Shown in pieces: positions 6,604 through 18,316 of a stretch of 57,580 bases of DNA. The stretch's first letter is position 1, and each line of letters starts with the position of its first letter. The notes under the pieces are model-generated. The model saw only the letters and a program-made list of their open reading frames with translations. It was not told the origin of the DNA and did not search any database. The translations under genes and the position numbers were made by a program. Origin of the DNA: an uncultured Bacteroidales bacterium (lineage in GTDB: Bacteria; Bacteroidota; Bacteroidia; Bacteroidales; Bacteroidaceae); contig CADCGD010000019.1 in the NCBI GenBank assembly GCA_902800925.1, positions 1 to 57,580 on the forward strand, given 5' to 3'.

Positions 6604-8412
6604 ATGGAGAATACGTCCAAAGAGTTGAAACGCCCTGAATGGCTGGTGAAACTGCACGACTGGCGCGTGGCGAATGTCAGTGACAAGACGTTCTTGCTCA
6701 TTCTGGCATTCTTGGTGGGTGTACTGTCTGCTGTGGCCGCCTTTGTGCTGCACGGACTCATCAACACCATCGTGGCGCTGTTGACAGGTAGTTTCCATGC
6801 GGACACCTACAACTGGCTCTATCTGGTATATCCGGTGGTGGGTATCTGGCTGACATCACTGTTTGTGCGTTATGTGGTCAGAGACAATATCTCGCATGGT
6901 ATCACACGCATCCTCTATGCCATCTCCTCGAACCGTTCCCGACTGAAGGGACATAATACGTGGTCTTCAGTCATCGCTTCTGCTATTACCATCGGCTTTG
7001 GTGGTTCGGTGGGTGCCGAGGCACCTATCGTACTGACAGGTTCGGCCATTGGCTCTAACCTCGGACAGTTGTTCCGGCTGGATAATAAGACGCTGATGAC
7101 GCTGGTGGGCTGTGGTGCAGCAGGTGCTATTGCGGGCATCTTCAAGGCCCCGATAGCAGGACTGGTGTTCACGTTGGAGGTGCTGATGATTGACATGACG
7201 ATGTCGGCACTGTTGCCTATCCTCGTATCGTGCGTGACAGCAACGTGTTTCACTTACTTGTTTAGTGGCAATGCTGTGCTGTTCTCGTTCCATCTGGATT
7301 CTGATTGGACCGTAGAGCGCGTTCCGGCCTGCATCCTGCTGGGCATCACCTGTGGCTTCGTATCGCTCTACTTCATCCGTACGATGACCGTTTGCGAGGA
7401 CCTCTTTGCACGTTTCAAGAACAAACCTTATATCAAGTTGCTTATCGGCGGTGCTACGCTGAGTACGCTCATCTTCCTCTTCCCATCGCTCTATGGTGAG
7501 GGCTACCATTCTATCAACCTGCTGCTCAACGGAAAGACAGAGGCCGACTGGAACCAGATACTCGACGGCTCACTGTTCTATGGACATAGCGAGTATATCA
7601 TCCTCTATCTGGCACTGGTACTCTTTACGAAGGTCTTTGCCACCTCGGCAACGAATGGTGGCGGCGGCTGTGGTGGTACCTTCGCGCCCTCGCTATTCAT
7701 CGGCTGCTTTACGGGCTTCCTGTTCTCACGTCTGTGGAATATGAACCAGATAGGTGTCTACGTGCCGGAGAAGAACTTTGCCCTGATGGGTATGGCGGGC
7801 GTGATGTCGGGTGTGATGCATGCCCCGCTGACGGGTATCTTCCTCATTGCCGAGATTACCAGTGGCTACGATCTCTTCATGCCGCTGATGATTGTCTCGG
7901 TGTCGGCCTATCTGACCATCAATATCTTTGAGCCTCACAGCATCTATGGCATGCGTCTGGCCAAGCAGGGACGACTGGTGACCCACCATACCGACCATGC
8001 GGTGCTGACACTGATGAGTCTGGACTCTGTCATTGACCGCGACTACCAAGGGGTGGACCCTGATATGGAACTGGGACAGATGGTTCATAAGATCAGTCGT
8101 TCGCATACCGACGTATTGCCGGTGACCGATGCGGCAGGAACGTTGTTGGGGGAGATAGACATCCGGAAGATACGTCATGTGGTGTTCCGCACAGAGCTGT
8201 ACAACCACTTCAAGGCGCAACAGCTGATGGTGGAGCCTGCTGCGGTGCTGAGCGATGGTACACCGATGACGGAGGTGATGAAGACCTTTGAGCGTACACA
8301 GGCCGACTGGTTGCCCGTGCTCGACATAGAAAACCATCTAAAGGGTTATATCTCGCGCAAGCGTATGTACACGATGTATCGTAAGATAGTCCGTGACTTT
8401 AGTCAAGAGTAG
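6604..8412 (+). CDS. ClC-type chloride channel/transporter with C-terminal CBS pair
   Basis: 602 aa. The ClC core (about 1-430) shows many hydrophobic helices, GSVGAEAPIVLTG (the GxxGxExP selectivity region with the gating Glu), GAAGAIAGIFKAPIAG and GGGCGGTFAPSLFIG. Two CBS motifs follow (about 445-595: DYQGVDPDMELGQMVHKI and QQLMVEPAAVLSDGTPMTEV), which usually bind adenine nucleotides. AAGGA lies 5 nt before ATG 6604. It may be a Cl-/H+ antiporter or a channel; motif inspection cannot decide. Grouping with a SpoIIE phosphatase sensor and envelope proteins suggests a stress-linked operon (inference). The stop runs directly into a tandem GC-rich repeat. Confidence 0.92.
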   Translation: MENTSKELKRPEWLVKLHDWRVANVSDKTFLLILAFLVGVLSAVAAFVLHGLINTIVALLTGSFHADTYNWLYLVYPVVGIWLTSLFVRYVVRDNISHGITRILYAISSNRSRLKGHNTWSSVIASAITIGFGGSVGAEAPIVLTGSAIGSNLGQLFRLDNKTLMTLVGCGAAGAIAGIFKAPIAGLVFTLEVLMIDMTMSALLPILVSCVTATCFTYLFSGNAVLFSFHLDSDWTVERVPACILLGITCGFVSLYFIRTMTVCEDLFARFKNKPYIKLLIGGATLSTLIFLFPSLYGEGYHSINLLLNGKTEADWNQILDGSLFYGHSEYIILYLALVLFTKVFATSATNGGGGCGGTFAPSLFIGCFTGFLFSRLWNMNQIGVYVPEKNFALMGMAGVMSGVMHAPLTGIFLIAEITSGYDLFMPLMIVSVSAYLTINIFEPHSIYGMRLAKQGRLVTHHTDHAVLTLMSLDSVIDRDYQGVDPDMELGQMVHKISRSHTDVLPVTDAAGTLLGEIDIRKIRHVVFRTELYNHFKAQQLMVEPAAVLSDGTPMTEVMKTFERTQADWLPVLDIENHLKGYISRKRMYTMYRKIVRDFSQE

Positions 8413-8461
8413 GCGGGCAAAGCGGGCAAGGCGGGCAAGGCGGGCAAGGCGGGCTTTGCCC
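8413..8461. repeat. 9-bp tandem repeat ending in a GGGC-TTT-GCCC hairpin
   Basis: Five units of gcgggcaag (first gcgggcaaa, last gcgggcttt) starting one base after the ClC stop, closed by gccc. The last unit forms GGGC-TTT-GCCC, and earlier GGGCAA units could also pair with TTGCCC. An AT heptad tract follows at once. This GC-palindrome-then-heptad layout recurs at 10886, 13863 and 41970. Confidence 0.75.
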
Positions 8462-8583
8462 TAATTGATAAATGATAATTGATAAATTGCTACCGCCTAT
8501 TTAGGCCAATATAAAAAAAGCATATTGATAACGACAACATATTGATAACAAAACAGATGACTCTACAATATATAAGATAGCAG

Positions 8584-8943
8584 ATGACCCAAGATAATTT
8601 ATTGACAGAGAAAAGTATTGAGTTTGCCATAAGAATGACAAACTGTTATAAATATTTGACGGAGGAGAAAAATGAATACATTATGTCTAAACAGATGTTT
8701 CGAAGCGGTACAAGTATCGGGGCAAATATTCATGAAGGAATACAAGCTCAGAGTAAGGCGGATTTTGTCAGCAAGTTAAGTATAGCTTTGAAAGAAGCTA
8801 GCGAAACATCGTATTGGTTGGTTGTCTTAAATAGAGCCGATTTTTTAGACGAAAAATTATATCTGTCATTAAAAGCAGATGTTGATGAAATAATACGTAT
8901 ATTAGTAGCCTCCATAAAGACTACGAAGAAAAATATGGTATGA
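8584..8943 (+). CDS. Four-helix-bundle protein, 23S rRNA intervening-sequence (S23) family, copy 1
   Basis: 119 aa, all helical. The family signature FRSGTSIGANIHEGIQAQSK (about 39-58) is followed by DFVSKLSIALKEASETSYWL. S23/IVS proteins were first found encoded in stem-loop insertions of 23S rRNA genes; free copies are common in Bacteroidota and their function is not known. They are structurally related to the Avd accessory protein of diversity-generating retroelements, but no reverse transcriptase or template repeat is present here. The gene is clearly more AT-rich than its neighbours, separates the ClC and fmt genes, and is flanked by inverted heptad arms. It is closely similar to the protein at 15507-15860. 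Confidence 0.88.
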   Translation: MTQDNLLTEKSIEFAIRMTNCYKYLTEEKNEYIMSKQMFRSGTSIGANIHEGIQAQSKADFVSKLSIALKEASETSYWLVVLNRADFLDEKLYLSLKADVDEIIRILVASIKTTKKNMV

Positions 8944-8953
8944 TCGAGTATCC

Positions 8954-9106
8954 AATAGCGGTAGCAATTTATCATTTATCATTTATCATTTAGCGAATGC
9001 GTAATAGCGGTAGCAATTTATCATTTATCAATTATCATTTAGCGAATGCGTAATAGCGGTAGCAATTTATCATTTATCATTTATCAATTATCATTTAGCG
9101 AATGCG
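8954..9106. repeat. Three tandem 48-55 bp repeats containing the fmt start codon
   Basis: Units at 8954-9001, 9003-9050 (48 bp each) and 9052-9106 (55 bp). Each reads aatagcggtagcaatttatc, then heptads, then atttagcgaatgcg, with single t's between. The third has one extra 7-mer (tttatca). The ATG of fmt is inside the gcgaATGcg end of the third unit. There are no unique spacers, so this is not CRISPR. Confidence 0.85.
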
Positions 9107-10079
9107 TAAGTCAGATTTAAGAATAGTTTTTATGGGAACCCCGGAGTTTGCGGTAGAGACGCTGCAGGCATTGGTGGAGAATGAATATAACGTGGTGGCC
9201 GTGGTGACACAGCCCGATAAACCCGTGGGACGACACCAGACAGAGATGCAGCCCTCGGCAGTGAAGCAGTATGCGGTGGCACATGGATTACCCGTGCTGC
9301 AACCCGAGAAGATGAAAGACCCGGAGTTTGTAGAACAGCTCCGTTCGTACAATGCCAACCTGCAGGTGGTGGTGGCCTTCCGCATGTTACCTGAGGTGGT
9401 ATGGGCAATGCCGGAGTTCGGCACCTTTAACGTCCATGCGGCGCTGTTGCCCCAGTATCGTGGTGCGGCCCCCATCAACTGGGCGGTTATCAATGGTGAG
9501 ACAGAGACGGGTGTGACCACTTTCTTCCTCGACCATGATATCGATACAGGCCGTATCATCCTGAAGAAGCCTTTCCCTATTCCCGACGATGCCGATGTAG
9601 AGTATGTCTATGACGGTCTGATGCACCTTGGTGCCCAGCTCTGTCTGGAGACCCTCGAAGCTATCGTTGCTGCTGACGGCCACCCCGATAGCATCCCACA
9701 GGATGATTCTCAATTCTCAATTCTCAATTCTCAATTAAAATCTGCCCCTAAGATTTTCAAGGAAACCTGTCAGATAGACTGGACAAAGACCGCCAAACAG
9801 GTCTATGACTTTGTGCGTGGCCTGAGTCCTTATCCTGGTGCGTGGACTATGCTCGTAGGCAATGACAAGGAGAGCGTCCTGAAGATTTACAAGACCCACA
9901 AGACCGGATGCGCTACCGACCAGAAACCAGGTACCCTCCGTGTAGAACAGAAGATGCTGCAGATTGCTGCTGGTGACGAATGGCTGGAGATTGTAGAGCT
10001 TCAGATGGCTGGGAAGAAGCGCATGACAGCCCGTGATTTCCTGAACGGTACAAAGATTGAAAATTTTTTTGTACGTTGA
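9102..10079 (+). CDS. fmt: Methionyl-tRNA formyltransferase
   Basis: Formylates initiator Met-tRNA using 10-formyl-THF. 325 aa against about 315 in E. coli. The N-terminal formyltransferase domain starts RIVFMGTPEFAVETL and carries FNVHAALLPQYRGAAPINWA with the catalytic Asn and His, and FFLDHDIDTG with the Asp. The C-terminal OB-like domain begins near residue 215 (FKETCQIDWTKTAKQVYDFVRGLSPYPGAWT). Oddity: four exact copies of ttctcaa (9707-9734) are read in frame as [10 protein letters not shown] at the interdomain linker. The start ATG lies in the tandem repeat upstream. Translation should tolerate the linker insertion, but loss or gain of one 7-mer would frameshift the C-domain. Confidence 0.96.
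   Translation: MRKSDLRIVFMGTPEFAVETLQALVENEYNVVAVVTQPDKPVGRHQTEMQPSAVKQYAVAHGLPVLQPEKMKDPEFVEQLRSYNANLQVVVAFRMLPEVVWAMPEFGTFNVHAALLPQYRGAAPINWAVINGETETGVTTFFLDHDIDTGRIILKKPFPIPDDADVEYVYDGLMHLGAQLCLETLEAIVAADGHPDSIPQDDSQFSILNSQLKSAPKIFKETCQIDWTKTAKQVYDFVRGLSPYPGAWTMLVGNDKESVLKIYKTHKTGCATDQKPGTLRVEQKMLQIAAGDEWLEIVELQMAGKKRMTARDFLNGTKIENFFVR
9707..9736. repeat. In-frame heptad tract inside fmt
   Basis: Four perfect tandem ttctcaa units plus tt, the same family as the intergenic gagaatt tracts (reverse complement). They are placed exactly in the linker between the two Fmt domains. Confidence 0.9.
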
Positions 10080-10237: not shown

Positions 10238-10900
10238 ATGGCTACAATGGTTTCGCCGTCGCTGCTTGCAGCTGACTTCCTACATCTCGACCAGGAGATA
10301 GACATGATTAATCGCAGTGAGGCCGACTGGCTTCATCTGGATGTGATGGATGGTGTGTTTGTTCCCAACATCTCGTTTGGCTTCCCTGTTCTGGAGGCTG
10401 TTGCCAAGAAGTGTAAGAAACCGCTGGACGTGCACTACATGATAGTGCACCCGGAGCACTACATCCAGCAGACGGCGAAGCTTGGGGCGATGATGATGAA
10501 CGTACACTACGAGGCGTGCACCCATCTGCACCGTACTGTTCAGGAGATTCATCAGGCAGGCATGAAGGCTGCTGTGACGCTCAATCCCGCCACACCCGTC
10601 TGTGTCCTGGAGGATATCATCTGCGATGTTGACATGGTGTTGCTGATGAGTGTCAATCCTGGCTTTGGTGGTCAGACGTTCATTGAGAATACTATCAAGA
10701 AGGTGCGCCAGCTCCGTCAGTTGATTGCTGAACGTGGCTCAAAAGCACTGATAGAGATTGATGGTGGGGTACAGCAAGAAACAGCACCACGTCTCGTTGA
10801 GGCGGGTGCCGATGTATTGGTTGCCGGTAGCTATGTGTTCCATAGCCCTAAGCCGGAGGCTACCATTAGTGCACTTCGTGCTTTACGGGCTACGCCCTAA
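10238..10900 (+). CDS. rpe: Ribulose-phosphate 3-epimerase
   Basis: Interconverts ribulose 5-phosphate and xylulose 5-phosphate in the pentose phosphate pathway. 220 aa from ATG 10238, the usual family length. A TIM barrel with MVSPSLLAADF at the N-terminus, WLHLDVMDG, HYMIVHPEHYI, MSVNPGFGGQ and IEIDGGV near the end supplies the metal-binding His/Asp set. The frame is open back to 10088, but that extension is not conserved. The last codons (R-A-T-P-stop) fall in a 21-bp sequence (10886-10906) identical to one beside rmlA, so a repeat has supplied the C-terminal end. 10080-10237 upstream holds only a small hairpin (ctgttt-atc-aaacag, 10186-10200). Confidence 0.95.
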   Translation: MATMVSPSLLAADFLHLDQEIDMINRSEADWLHLDVMDGVFVPNISFGFPVLEAVAKKCKKPLDVHYMIVHPEHYIQQTAKLGAMMMNVHYEACTHLHRTVQEIHQAGMKAAVTLNPATPVCVLEDIICDVDMVLLMSVNPGFGGQTFIENTIKKVRQLRQLIAERGSKALIEIDGGVQQETAPRLVEAGADVLVAGSYVFHSPKPEATISALRALRATP

Positions 10901-10987
10901 ATGATAAATGATAATTGATAAATGATAATGGATAATTACGGACTGCGGTAGCAATTTATCATTTATCAATTATCATTTAGCGAATGC
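10886..10987. repeat. Stem-loop element between convergent rpe and sigma factor genes (reverse orientation)
   Basis: The palindrome gggctacgccc is followed by heptads. A perfect 23-bp inverted repeat (10906-10928 with 10956-10978) encloses a 27-nt loop, 10929-10955. That loop is the exact reverse complement of the loop of the 13727-13821 element. The outer end is agcgaatgcg. It may act as a bidirectional terminator. Confidence 0.85.
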
Positions 10988-13726: not shown

Positions 13727-13821
13727 ACGCATTCGCTAATTGATAATTGATAAATGATAAATTGCTACCGCAGTCCGTAATTATCCATTATCATTTATCA
13801 ATTATCAATTAGCGAATGCGT
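13727..13821. repeat. 95-bp stem-loop element between convergent kinase fusion and rmlA
   Basis: A perfect 34-bp inverted repeat (13727-13760 with 13788-13821): gc-rich tips acgcattcgc/gcgaatgcgt, then heptads. The loop 13761-13787 (attgctaccgcagtccgtaa...) is 27 nt. A further solo arm with the ggcgtagccc palindrome fills 13822-13865. This is the fullest copy of the family, and a strong bidirectional terminator candidate even without a T-run. Confidence 0.9.
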
Positions 13822-13866
13822 CATCATTTGTCATTTATCAATTATCATTTAGGGCGTAGCCCGCCT

Positions 13867-14855: not shown

Positions 14856-15473
14856 ATGAGTTTTATAAGTAGATTATTTGGAAAGAAAGAGGAGGAACAG
14901 AAGGTTGGTGGCATGGAGGATTTCATGACACTGATTCGCGTATATTTTCAGGCTGTGATGGCAGCAGATCTGGGCATCACCAATCTGGCGGCACTGCCCG
15001 ACTTGCGTACTTTCAAGGCTACGCTGAAGGTTCCCACACAGAACAATAAGCTGGGACTGGCCGAGAAGACACGTTGTAAGAAGATGCTCAAGGAACTCTA
15101 TCAGATGGACGACAACTTCACCAAGGAGATAGAGAGCAGCATTCGCAAGCGTTGCAAGAAACCACAAGACATACAGACCTATATGTATCAGTTCTCTGGT
15201 TTCTCACAGGACCTTTTAATGCTGACAGGTAACCTGATGAAGTTCAAACTTCGTCTGCCCAGCATCTTCAAAAGTGCTATCCGTACGATGACGGAAAAGA
15301 CTGTGAATGATATCTTTACAAAGAATGACTTCACGGACGCTGCAGTCATGAAAACGGTTGTTGCTATTCGCCAATACGACCAAAAGCTTGGTTTCTCGCA
15401 GCAGTGGGTTACCGACTTCGTTTTCCGTGTTGTGATGTTGGCGAAAAAGGAGAAACAGGCGCCAGAGAATTGA
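14856..15473 (+). CDS. Conserved hypothetical protein, helical
   Basis: 205 aa, mostly charged helices, no signal peptide or TM segment. It starts MSFISRLFGKKEEEQKVGGM. Later features include the Cys-containing KTRCKKMLKELYQMDD and a basic segment IRKRCKKPQD. I do not recognise the family. Its stop codon (15471-15473) lies within the first unit of a gagaatt tract that also carries the next gene's start. The true end may therefore have been altered by the repeat insertion. Confidence 0.75.
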   Translation: MSFISRLFGKKEEEQKVGGMEDFMTLIRVYFQAVMAADLGITNLAALPDLRTFKATLKVPTQNNKLGLAEKTRCKKMLKELYQMDDNFTKEIESSIRKRCKKPQDIQTYMYQFSGFSQDLLMLTGNLMKFKLRLPSIFKSAIRTMTEKTVNDIFTKNDFTDAAVMKTVVAIRQYDQKLGFSQQWVTDFVFRVVMLAKKEKQAPEN

Positions 15474-15903
15474 GAATTGAGAATTGAGAATTGAGAATTG
15501 AGAATTATGGCAAAGCCCAATGTAATAGCTGAAAAGAGTGAGGAATTTGCTGTAAGAGTGATTAATCTCTCCAAATATCTCATTGCTGAGAAGAAAGAAT
15601 ATATTATATCTAAACAGATATTTAGAAGTGGTACCAGTATAGGTGCTAATGTGAGCGAAAGTCGTAATGCACAAAGCAAAGATGATTTCATTAGTAAACT
15701 GAATATCGCTTTGAAAGAAGCAGATGAAACTGCTTATTGGCTCCGAATACTGAAACGTACTGAGTTTATCTCTCAAGACCAATTTTCTTCTTTGAATGAA
15801 GATGTTCAGGAACTGATTTCTATATTGGTCAGTATCATTAAAACTACAAAAGAAAAATGATGCGCAGCACTAATTCTCAATTCTCAATTCTCAATTCACA
15901 ATT
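15465..15903. mobile_element. Candidate stem-loop element carrying an S23-family gene (copy 2)
   Basis: The left arm is six perfect gagaatt units (15465-15506). The right arm is the inverse: aattctc x3, aattcac, aatt (15872-15903). A single four-helix-bundle gene fills the space. The architecture equals the 8462-9106 locus but with a different heptad. The mobile nature is inferred; no transposase, and no target duplication I can define. Confidence 0.45.
15507..15860 (+). CDS. Four-helix-bundle protein, 23S rRNA intervening-sequence (S23) family, copy 2
   Basis: 117 aa from ATG 15507, which directly follows the last gagaatt unit, so there is no Shine-Dalgarno. The signature FRSGTSIGANVSESRNAQSK and DFISKLNIALKEADETAYWL align with copy 1 at 8584-8943 over the full length (roughly 60 percent identical by eye). 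The function of this family outside 23S rRNA insertions is unknown. The gene is AT-rich relative to neighbours and sits between an unknown gene and the zapA-rny block. Confidence 0.88.
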   Translation: MAKPNVIAEKSEEFAVRVINLSKYLIAEKKEYIISKQIFRSGTSIGANVSESRNAQSKDDFISKLNIALKEADETAYWLRILKRTEFISQDQFSSLNEDVQELISILVSIIKTTKEK

Positions 15904-15981: not shown

Positions 15982-16281
15982 ATGACTGCTAACGAGAAAA
16001 ACTTGGCAACGTTCGAGACTCGTCTCCGCCAGCTCCTGCTCCGTTTTCAGGAGTTGAAGAAGGAGAATGGAGAGGTGTATGCCATGCTCGAAGCCAATAA
16101 GAAGACGGTCAAGGAGTTGCAGGAAAGGATTAATCAGCAGCAGGCAGACTATGACTCACTTAAGATGGCTAAGATGATTGAAATTACCGATGGTAACCTG
16201 GATGGTGCCAAGGAACGATTGTCGAAGCTTATCCGTGAAGTCAATAAGTGCATTGCAATCCTCAGCGATGAAAATCAGTAA
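15982..16281 (+). CDS. Small coiled-coil protein, ZapB-like, upstream of zapA
   Basis: 99 aa, almost entirely heptad-patterned coiled coil (FETRLRQLLLRFQELKKENG ... VKELQERINQQQADYDSLKM). Size and position directly before zapA suggest a FtsZ-ring-associated coiled-coil protein comparable to ZapB, but this is by analogy only. 17 nt separate it from zapA and they share one promoter. No signal peptide. Confidence 0.75.
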   Translation: MTANEKNLATFETRLRQLLLRFQELKKENGEVYAMLEANKKTVKELQERINQQQADYDSLKMAKMIEITDGNLDGAKERLSKLIREVNKCIAILSDENQ

Positions 16282-16652: not shown

Positions 16653-18194
16653 ATGAACATTATTGTTGCGATTATTGCCATTGCCGCTGCTCTCATACTG
16701 GGTGGCGCCGCTGGCTTCATGATTTTCCGCTTTGTTATCAAGGGAAAATATAATGAGATGGTCGATGCTGCCAAGAAAGAGGCAGAAGTCATCAAGGAGA
16801 AGAAACTGCTGGAGGTGAAGGAGAAATTCCTGAACAAGAAGTCTGAACTGGAGAAGGAGGTGCAACAGCGCAACCAGCACATTCAGCAGAGCGAGAACAA
16901 ACTGAAACAGCGCGAGATTTCCCTCAACCAGCGCCAAGAGGAACTGGGACGTCGTAAGAATGAGCTGGACAACCAGCAGACGCGCATCGACAACGAGAAG
17001 AAGTTGCTGACCCTCAAGCAGGAAGAACTGGAGAAGATGCAGTTGCAGGAGCGTGCTAAGCTGGAGGAACTCTCTGGCCTATCCGCCGAAGAGGCTAAGG
17101 CTCGTCTGGTAGAGTCGCTGAAGGATGAGGCTAAGACCGATGCTCAGGCTTACATCAACGAAATCATGGACGAGGCTAAGCTGAACGCCAATGCCCAGGC
17201 CAAGAAGATTGTCATCCAGACCATTCAGCGTGTAGCTACGGAGACCGCTGTAGAGAACTCTGTCAGCGTATTCCATATCGACAACGACGACGTCAAGGGT
17301 CGAGTCATTGGTCGTGAGGGTCGTAACATCCGTGCTCTGGAAGCTGCCTGCGGCGTGGAAATCGTCGTCGACGACACCCCCGAGGCCATCGTCATCTCCG
17401 CCTTCGATCCTGTACGCCGTGAGACCTGTCGTCTGGCCCTGCACCAGTTGGTAGCTGACGGACGTATCCACCCCGCACGCATCGAGGAGGTTGTTGCCAA
17501 GGTCAAGAAGCAGCTGGAGAACGAGATTATCGAGACGGGTAAGCGTACGGCTATCGACCTGGGTATCCATGGTCTGCACCCTGAGCTGATTCGTATCGTG
17601 GGTAAGATGAAGTATCGCTCTTCCTACGGTCAGAACCTGTTGCAGCACGCCCGTGAGACCGCTAACCTCTGTGCTGTCATGGCTGCTGAGCTGGGTCTGA
17701 ACCCCAAGAAAGCTAAGCGTGCCGGACTGTTGCATGATATAGGTAAGGTGCCCGATGAGGATACTGATGATCCACACGCTATCTACGGTGCCAAGATTGC
17801 CGAGAAATATAAGGAGAAGCCCGATATCTGCAATGCCATTGGTGCTCACCACGACGAGATGGAGATGCAGACACTGCTGGCTCCTATCGTACAGATCTGT
17901 GACGCTATCTCTGGTGCCCGTCCTGGTGCTCGCCGCGAGATTGTTGAGGCTTACATCAAGCGTCTGAACGACCTTGAGGCCATCGCTATGTCTTATCCTG
18001 GCGTTACCAAGACCTATGCCATCCAGGCTGGTCGTGAGTTGCGCGTCATCGTTGGTGCCGACAAGATGGACGATGCCGAGACTGAGGCACTCAGCGGACA
18101 GATTGCATCGAAGATTCAGAACGAGATGACCTATCCTGGTCAAGTGAAGATTACCGTTATCCGCGAGACAAGAAGCGTCGCTTACGCGAAGTAA
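16653..18194 (+). CDS. rny: Ribonuclease Y
   Basis: Membrane-anchored endoribonuclease that starts mRNA decay. 513 aa, normal length. Order: N-terminal TM helix (about 3-27), long coiled coil (30-190), KH domain (about 205-270) with [17 protein letters not shown] domain (about 330-425) with GLLHDIGK and AIGAHHDE, and a C-terminal domain ending in [12 protein letters not shown]. All catalytic HD residues are present. Probably co-transcribed with zapA. The gene is followed by an unusual 8-mer array and a strong terminator. Confidence 0.97.
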
Positions 18195-18200
18195 TATTTT

Positions 18201-18296
18201 CGAAATTTCGAAGCTTCGATATTTCGAAGTATCGAAGCTTCGATATTTCGATGTTTCGATACTTCGATGATTCGATACTTCGATGTTTCGAAATTT
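18201..18296. repeat. Array of twelve 8-mers (cgatgttt-like) after rny
   Basis: Twelve contiguous 8-nt units, each cga plus five bases (cgaaattt, cgaagctt, cgatattt, cgaagtat, cgatgttt, cgatactt ...). TTCGAA/TCGA palindromes are frequent, so the transcript could fold in many registers. The same 8-mers recur at 36160-36194 upstream of mmdA. Confidence 0.9.
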
Positions 18297-18316
18297 CGAG
18301 ATAACGAGAAAACGAA

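Follow-up and report, generated by a model that had tools for sequence, protein, structure and literature searches.

The window, meaning the whole stretch of 57,580 nucleotides analyzed here, carries two S23-family genes, each of which lies between an arm of tandem heptads and an inverted copy of that arm. At most loci of the sets that we compared, the S23 gene is in sense orientation between matched arms that are specific to the locus and are predicted to form a stem over the gene, and both sites in the window are empty in relatives; this much is established at the level of sequence. We propose, with a probability of about 0.6, that the unit is an intercistronic stem-loop element, the mRNA counterpart of the S23-bearing intervening sequences of 23S rRNA, in which a protein ring would hold one repeat per protomer.

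S23 proteins are described from rRNA intervening sequences and crystal structures as a family without known function (PMC4990558; title of 2rld), and heptameric repeats are described as an unexplained excess in bacterial genomes (PMC4692102). The proposal would join the two by a countable rule of five repeats and five subunits. The layout hints at what the S23 protein may hold on to, the rule makes its function directly testable by a binding assay, and the unit is a candidate element whose movement may not require a transposase encoded within it.

Two S23 elements in the window

Element A lies between a ClC chloride channel gene (6604..8412, + strand; PF00654 plus CBS) and fmt (9102..10079, + strand; TIGR00460). 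Its 5' arm (8462..8496, + strand) is made of GATAAWT heptads and ends on the inside with the motif TTGCTACCGC. The first-pass annotation had paired this arm with an inverse match at 8958-8992, and a recount gives the same 33 of 35 positions. The 3' arm (- strand) is present three times, at 8958..8992 (33/35), 9007..9041 (32/35) and 9056..9090 (34/35), and the last copy is an even better partner of the 5' arm. All three copies are contained in a 49-nt tandem array at 8954-9100 (about three copies) that extends to the start of fmt. The opening bases of fmt are also copied within this array, which places start-like contexts ahead of the fmt start. Two other arrays occur nearby: a GC-rich 9-nt tandem array at 8411-8454 (AGGCGGGCA, 4.9 copies) runs from the ClC stop codon to just 5' of element A, and an ATTCTCA array at 9706-9736 lies within the fmt reading frame and leaves it intact.

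Gene A (8584..8943, + strand, 119 aa) had been described as an AT-rich S23-family gene for a four-helix bundle that splits ClC and fmt, and each part of this description holds up. Its GC content is 0.33 against 0.53 for ClC and 0.52 for fmt, the latter two genes are adjacent in 18 relatives, and family membership is supported by profile matches (96.2 bits to PF05635 and 107.9 bits to TIGR02436) and by a four-helix AF2 model. The best model has a pLDDT of 91.6, while two of the five models are near 44, and its closest PDB structure is 2rld (TM 0.92), that of BT_0352 from Bacteroides thetaiotaomicron. The fold also resembles that of the Avd protein of diversity-generating retroelements (DGRs; 4dwl, 8ub7 and 8ube) with TM scores of 0.70-0.76 and weak E-values. 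PDB entries 2gsc and 2rld contain five chains each, and 2gsc, a relative, is reported to be a homopentamer that forms a torus (PMC4990558).

Element B has the same layout with a different heptad, as the annotation had also claimed. It follows a conserved gene (14856..15473, + strand) whose stop codon falls within the first heptads. This gene is matched in 134 of 150 genomes of the genus and, at E 0.001, belongs to neither a Pfam nor an NCBIfam family. The 5' arm (15465..15506, + strand) consists of six GAGAATT units, and the 3' arm (15872..15903, - strand) is an AATTCTC array. Gene B (15507..15860, + strand) scores 94.6 bits to PF05635 and 111 bits to TIGR02436, as computed on 15498-15857, and both S23 genes are therefore far above the cut-offs of 33.8 and 24 bits of these profiles. 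The ATG at 15507, directly after the arm, is a more likely start than the listed TTG at 15498. A small coiled-coil-type gene (15982..16281, + strand) follows downstream; its family matches are weak and below the cut-off, and we call it zapB from its position ahead of zapA. Predicted RNA folds have z-scores of -4.5 for element A and -6.9 for element B. In both elements the S23 gene is the sole ORF of at least 90 aa contained between the arms, and no transposase is encoded there. No reverse transcriptase family was found among six window proteins scanned by profile.

Heptads also form hairpins that have no gene. One of GATAAWT heptads (10898..10979) begins in the stop codon of an ORF ending at 10900. 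The left arm of another (13737..13851) has both the outer (CGCATTCGCTAA) and the inner (TTGCTACCGC) ends of the element A 3' arm, read inward. A TTCGATA-type array of period 8 (18198-18299) directly follows an ORF ending at 18194.

Arms, orientation and AG spacing at S23 loci

To score arms, the two 250-nt flanks of a gene were matched to each other, with a threshold of at least 30 and with mechanical ORFs as gene calls. The genus set comprised 80 stretches around PF05635 matches. In all, 78 genes, counting those of the window, scored 60 bits or more against our own profile and were kept; eight of 86 profile hits were below 60 bits and were left out, as was the S23 gene of one locus (L101) that the ORF finder missed. 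Inverted flank matches are present at 67 of the 78 S23 loci and direct matches at five. By comparison, 11 of 427 control genes from the same stretches are bracketed in this way, or 7 of 100 where there is intergenic space on both sides, and one of the 11 is apparently an out-of-frame ORF over the S23 match of L101. Each locus has its own 7-9-nt word, and its two arms match each other. When the left flank of one locus is paired with the right flank of another, 5.1% of pairs reach the threshold, so that the matching is a property of arms that belong to one locus and not of a repeat common to all loci.

The window's own genome matches PF05635 at six places. One match is short and falls within a longer frame; the other five are full-length S23 genes, four of which clear the arm threshold. 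Three of the five lie outside the window: two carry matched arms with their own words (scores 64 and 56), and the third (L090, 4734-5117) has an inverted score of 29, below the threshold, and a direct score of 39. A 249-aa frame in this material (L006, G000:C4:90688-90828) matches PF05635 partially, at positions 30-74; similar long frames exist in relatives, and these may be another family.

The enrichment recurs in later sets. Inverted arms flank 14 of 22 further loci of the genus, and phylum-level sets have them at 15 of 30 and 24 of 40 loci, with mismatched pairs at 3.8% and 3.3%. In other families of the order only 4 of 11 loci reach 30, and three of the 11 have direct matches above 50. 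Five canonical S23 queries were used to obtain a set from named genomes, the best 80 loci of at least 591 stretches, which represents Bacteroidetes, Clostridia, Planctomycetes, Acidobacteria, proteobacteria, Nitrospirae, Chloroflexi, candidate phyla and two archaea. Here, 58 of the best 80 loci have matched inverted arms, compared with 2.0% of mismatched pairs, and 17 of the best 80 have direct repeat matches; one of the two archaeal loci (L322) has matched inverted arms. Of the viral-labelled loci, 33 of 34 had sufficient length to be scored; arms scoring at least 30 are present at 26 of the 33, with several near-duplicates in the count. Loci below threshold thus number 11/78 and 8/22 in the genus, 7/11 in other families of the order, 15/30 and 16/40 in the phylum, and 22 of the best 80 in named genomes. 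The predicted excess of arms around S23 genes relative to other genes is therefore present (67/78 against 11/427 in the genus) and is seen again in these sets. Chance or AT-rich composition as a cause of the arms was set aside on the basis of the controls with mismatched arms, direct repeats and other genes.

The position of the element between genes is regular. For 63 genus elements with an arm match of at least 34, the median loop between arms is 397 nt, the S23 start lies a median of 10 nt past the 5' arm, and the S23 end lies a median of 11 nt ahead of the 3' arm. In 43 of the 63, the start of the 5' arm and the upstream stop codon are at most 12 nt apart. Seventy-five S23 genes have neighbors within 700 nt; the neighbors are co-directional in 67 cases, and S23 is on their strand in 67 of 67. 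It shares a strand with the upstream gene in 73 of the 75, compared with 308 of 368 other gene triplets. The same holds in named genomes, where a count covering 60 of 70 loci gives upstream and downstream strands relative to S23 of (+,+) 47, (+,-) 4, (-,+) 5 and (-,-) 4, so that 47 of 51 S23 genes between co-directional genes are in sense. When folded as RNA with 110-nt flanks, 67 of 78 genus elements are predicted to form a flank-to-flank stem of at least 20 bp over S23; after an exchange of 3' flanks among loci, 26 of 78 still pair, which is not a low control. Ordinary terminators were set aside as an explanation, since the arms are about 400 nt apart with an ORF between them.

The arms outside the genus share a short core. 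Forty non-genus arms, preselected for a match of at least 34 and a best period of 7 and including viral-labelled loci, were folded at period 7 to give A (0.78) followed by G (0.92), with G or T as the usual next letter. This fold has a summed information of 2.72, compared with 1.90 (sd 0.07) in column-permuted controls. The AG rule was found post hoc and was then tested on fresh loci (L401-L440). At a spacing of 7, that fresh phylum set (80 flanks, 40 loci) has 21 flanks with five AG, 10 with four and 6 with six, and the first phylum set (60 flanks) has 13, 6 and 6, respectively. Named genomes, of which 70 of the 80 loci entered the AG counts (140 flanks), have 35 flanks with five, 13 with four and 3 with six at a spacing of 7, and 14, 2 and 1 at a spacing of 8. 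Pooled outside the genus, with 39 of the 40 fresh loci included (278 flanks, 139 loci), 92 flanks have exactly five AG at a spacing of 7-8 nt, 33 have four and 18 have six, whereas a count of four is reached in only 7 of 763 control segments taken from these loci. Five AG in each arm is the commonest joint class in two non-genus sets (16 and 7 loci).

The genus departs from this mode in part. Its canonical S23 genes (62 flanks) have 15 flanks with five AG, 7 with four and 3 with six, but the commonest joint class in the genus is four in each arm (10 loci), and the window's own subfamily (94 flanks) has 23 flanks with four and 11 with five. AA chains in this subfamily are four or five long about equally often (20 and 19). 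Element A has three to four GA-type units, and the two arms of element B contain six and about three GAG. Since the subfamily peaks at four, the five-AG rule applies to the window at most in an altered form. The median array length in four samples is 4.6, 4.4, 4.5 and 4.6 units, which equals the length of five cores and four spacers of 7-8 nt (about 4.4-4.6 units). The 5' arms also contain stop codons in all frames more often than expected from column permutation (0.78 against 0.49, and 0.44 against 0.20). Such stops were rejected as the reason for a period of 7-8 because, outside the genus, no stop codon is as constant as AG.

Occupied, empty and gene-less sites

Both window elements have empty sites in relatives. 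The comparison used the 30 best matches each for fmt and for the gene at 14856-15473, own genome included. ClC and fmt are directly adjacent, 4-87 nt apart, in 18 of 29 relatives, and tblastn with both window S23 proteins detects none at the fmt site in the 29. At the second site, the same search finds no S23 beside the upstream gene in 29 relatives, 27 of which have the same downstream gene. Of these 27 second-site junctions, 19 were looked at, and by eye four (L180, L181, L184 and L196) appear to have gene-less hairpins of a different word. The first junction has a tandem array starting at the ClC stop codon in L156, L167, L174 and L176, and a single arm like that of the window, without a gene, in L155. 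The repeat word at a given junction varies between species.

Three pairs of loci from different genomes (L095/L099, L060/L262 and L257/L261) can be aligned over arms and gene, with 76-78% DNA identity, but not in the DNA outside, a pattern that horizontal transfer and transposition would fit alike. At one site among close relatives, the element is present in G350 and G303, and has an internally deleted gene in G367, and there are repeats without an S23 gene in G349, G317, G348 and G372. Other elements are kept: that of L250 and its orthologues (L251, L252, L253, L256 and L041) occupies the same junction with the same repeat word in six genomes, and further orthologous pairs are also kept in place. 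The genes flanking the L250-type element read by eye as subunits of fumarate reductase/succinate dehydrogenase. A 1,070-nt S23 unit is duplicated in one genome at 99.5% identity (L247:4559-5628 and L248:4779-5848), and its 3' part resembles by eye the end of a RAYT-type transposase. Element borders taken from two near-identical S23 copies in G288 were set aside, as both are within a longer duplicated unit.

The earlier idea that gene and stem move together is supported, with amendments. Both checks proposed for it, on arm enrichment and on empty sites, turned out in its favor, and so do three locus pairs in which homology ends at the arms; the movement itself is read from such comparisons, the unit lies in sense between genes that look co-transcribed, and the hairpins are often gene-less. 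Gene-less arrays and hairpins, some at the same junction in relatives, indicate that loss or decay is also at work. From these alignments the unit appears to move at some rate, to be often lost and to be sometimes kept.

Heptad arrays tend to accompany S23 genes on the genome scale. Samples of 80 kb contain 0, 0, 0, 0 and 1 period-7 arrays in S23-free genomes and 6, 6, 7, 1 and 12 in S23-bearing genomes, a comparison confounded by GC content, which is 36-39% in the former and 44-50% in the latter; one S23-free genome (G010) has arrays. Period 7 is the most prominent in these samples, followed by 8. Over 181 genomes, hits of one repeat pattern correlate with S23 copy number (Spearman 0.65), although shared ancestry means that this is not independent evidence. 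The median is 1 hit in 51 genomes without S23, a class in which genomes whose matches were all weak (E above 1e-8) are also counted, and 133 hits in 35 genomes with six or more S23 genes. Exceptions are 7 of the 51 S23-free genomes with at least 10 array hits and 16 genomes with at least three S23 genes and fewer than 10. S23 counts are patchy among congeners, from 0 to 16 matches. An excess of heptads has been reported for many bacteria, and polymerase slippage was put forward as a possible source (PMC4692102).

A proposed mRNA element and its relation to known systems

As a stem-loop element, the unit would run from the upstream stop codon through a 5' arm of about 4.5 repeats of 7-8 nt, the S23 ORF and the inverse 3' arm to the next start codon, and it would be transcribed by read-through from the host operon. 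The arms would pair in the mRNA, and the resulting stem, like that of the 23S rRNA intervening sequences, would probably be a substrate for RNase III. The match between repeat number and subunit number suggests a ring of the TRAP type with one repeat per protomer, which would also explain the constant spacing with free letters between. The S23 homopentamer would then wrap one arm as a single strand in the manner of TRAP, each protomer binding one NAG core. With the start codon about 10 nt past the arm, a ring bound there would control S23's own translation; alternatively or additionally, it would carry the element RNA to new sites. Gene-less heptad hairpins may be derivatives that S23 serves or has left behind. 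The role of the predicted binding may accordingly be self-control, protection from RNase III or movement.

We favor RNA as the bound form on the basis of orientation and predicted structure, although selection for read-through expression would also explain the sense orientation. The arms could instead be terminal inverted repeats of a mobile DNA element that S23 binds as DNA, perhaps with one pentamer per single-stranded end, and that a host enzyme moves, with the mRNA stem a by-product. Both arms do carry AG repeats on the inward-reading strand, most commonly five and five outside the genus, gene-less hairpins with common arm ends look like a MITE-like family, and homology is limited to the element in three locus pairs. 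We nevertheless consider this unlikely, because the element has no transposase and because symmetric ends, unless antisense copies were purged, would not be expected to place S23 in sense at all 67 loci with co-directional neighbors.

An immobile, vertically inherited operon-control cassette, an attenuator or mRNA stabilizer with S23 as a host regulator, would account for the elements kept at one junction, such as that with the same word in six genomes, but is at odds with the two empty window sites, the patchy S23 counts of congeners and the homologous elements found amid unrelated flanking DNA, and it seems distinctly improbable. We give still less credence to an origin of the repeats in slippage or hairpin-mediated copying at gene ends, unrelated to S23, which would merely survive better there. 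S23-less heptad arrays are common and several begin in or beside a stop codon, and slippage has been suggested for the heptad excess in many bacteria (PMC4692102); however, few other genes of these regions lie between such arms, array numbers rise with S23 copy number, and the five-repeat mode at S23 flanks contrasts with the control segments, where even four is rare. The mRNA stem-loop reading may extend further. More tentatively, at somewhat less than even odds, S23 proteins across bacteria and archaea would be pentameric rings that read five NAG repeats at even spacing and, together with their arms, make up a widespread class of selfish or domesticated stem-loops in operon mRNA, with the rRNA intervening sequences as a special case and gene-less derivatives as one source of the unexplained heptameric repeats in bacterial genomes.

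The intervening sequences of 23S rRNA occur with and without an ORF. They involve the same protein family, and their complementary ends pair into a stem within a transcript, with the ORF in its loop (PMC4990558); stem-forming complementary ends are also present in the window elements by sequence and predicted fold. The window elements differ in that their arms are tandem 7-8-nt repeats and in lying between protein-coding genes, and by this location they are not themselves 23S rRNA intervening sequences. Eight exact rRNA strings, which make a weak test, are absent from all of the best 80 named-genome loci.

REP/RAYT and MITE families also have a gene between inverted repeats that are widespread without it. 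S23 elements share this arrangement but have no transposase, a locus-specific repeat sequence and strict sense orientation. Avd has a similar four-helix fold and is found in an RNA-protein complex, and its homology with S23 has been noted (PMC10053308). Viral-labelled loci were tried as a DGR Avd negative control and rejected: a crude pattern for the reverse transcriptase motif is absent from the 33, and the arms at 26 of them suggest that they are mostly S23 elements themselves.

The heptameric repeats of Xanthomonas and Nostoc are likewise 7-nt units, mostly intergenic and near an upstream ORF, and two Xanthomonas genomes have 70 and 75 inverted heptad pairs; they differ in a preferred unit number of four and are discussed as G-quadruplexes (PMC4692102). 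The term S23 is absent from the main text of that paper. Titles and abstract openings, with few subscription journals and no preprints among them, yielded nothing linking S23 genes to heptad arms; a prior description may exist elsewhere.

The closest parallel for the predicted mode of binding, and for that alone, is TRAP. TRAP is a ring oligomer of 11 subunits that binds one (N)AG-type repeat per subunit. The predicted S23 ring would have in common with it the oligomeric form, an (N)AG-type repeat for each subunit, a fixed spacing and a repeat number near the subunit number. S23 differs from TRAP in its unrelated fold, in having five rather than 11 subunits, in the 7-8-nt spacing, and in the placement of its repeats in inverted arms around the gene.
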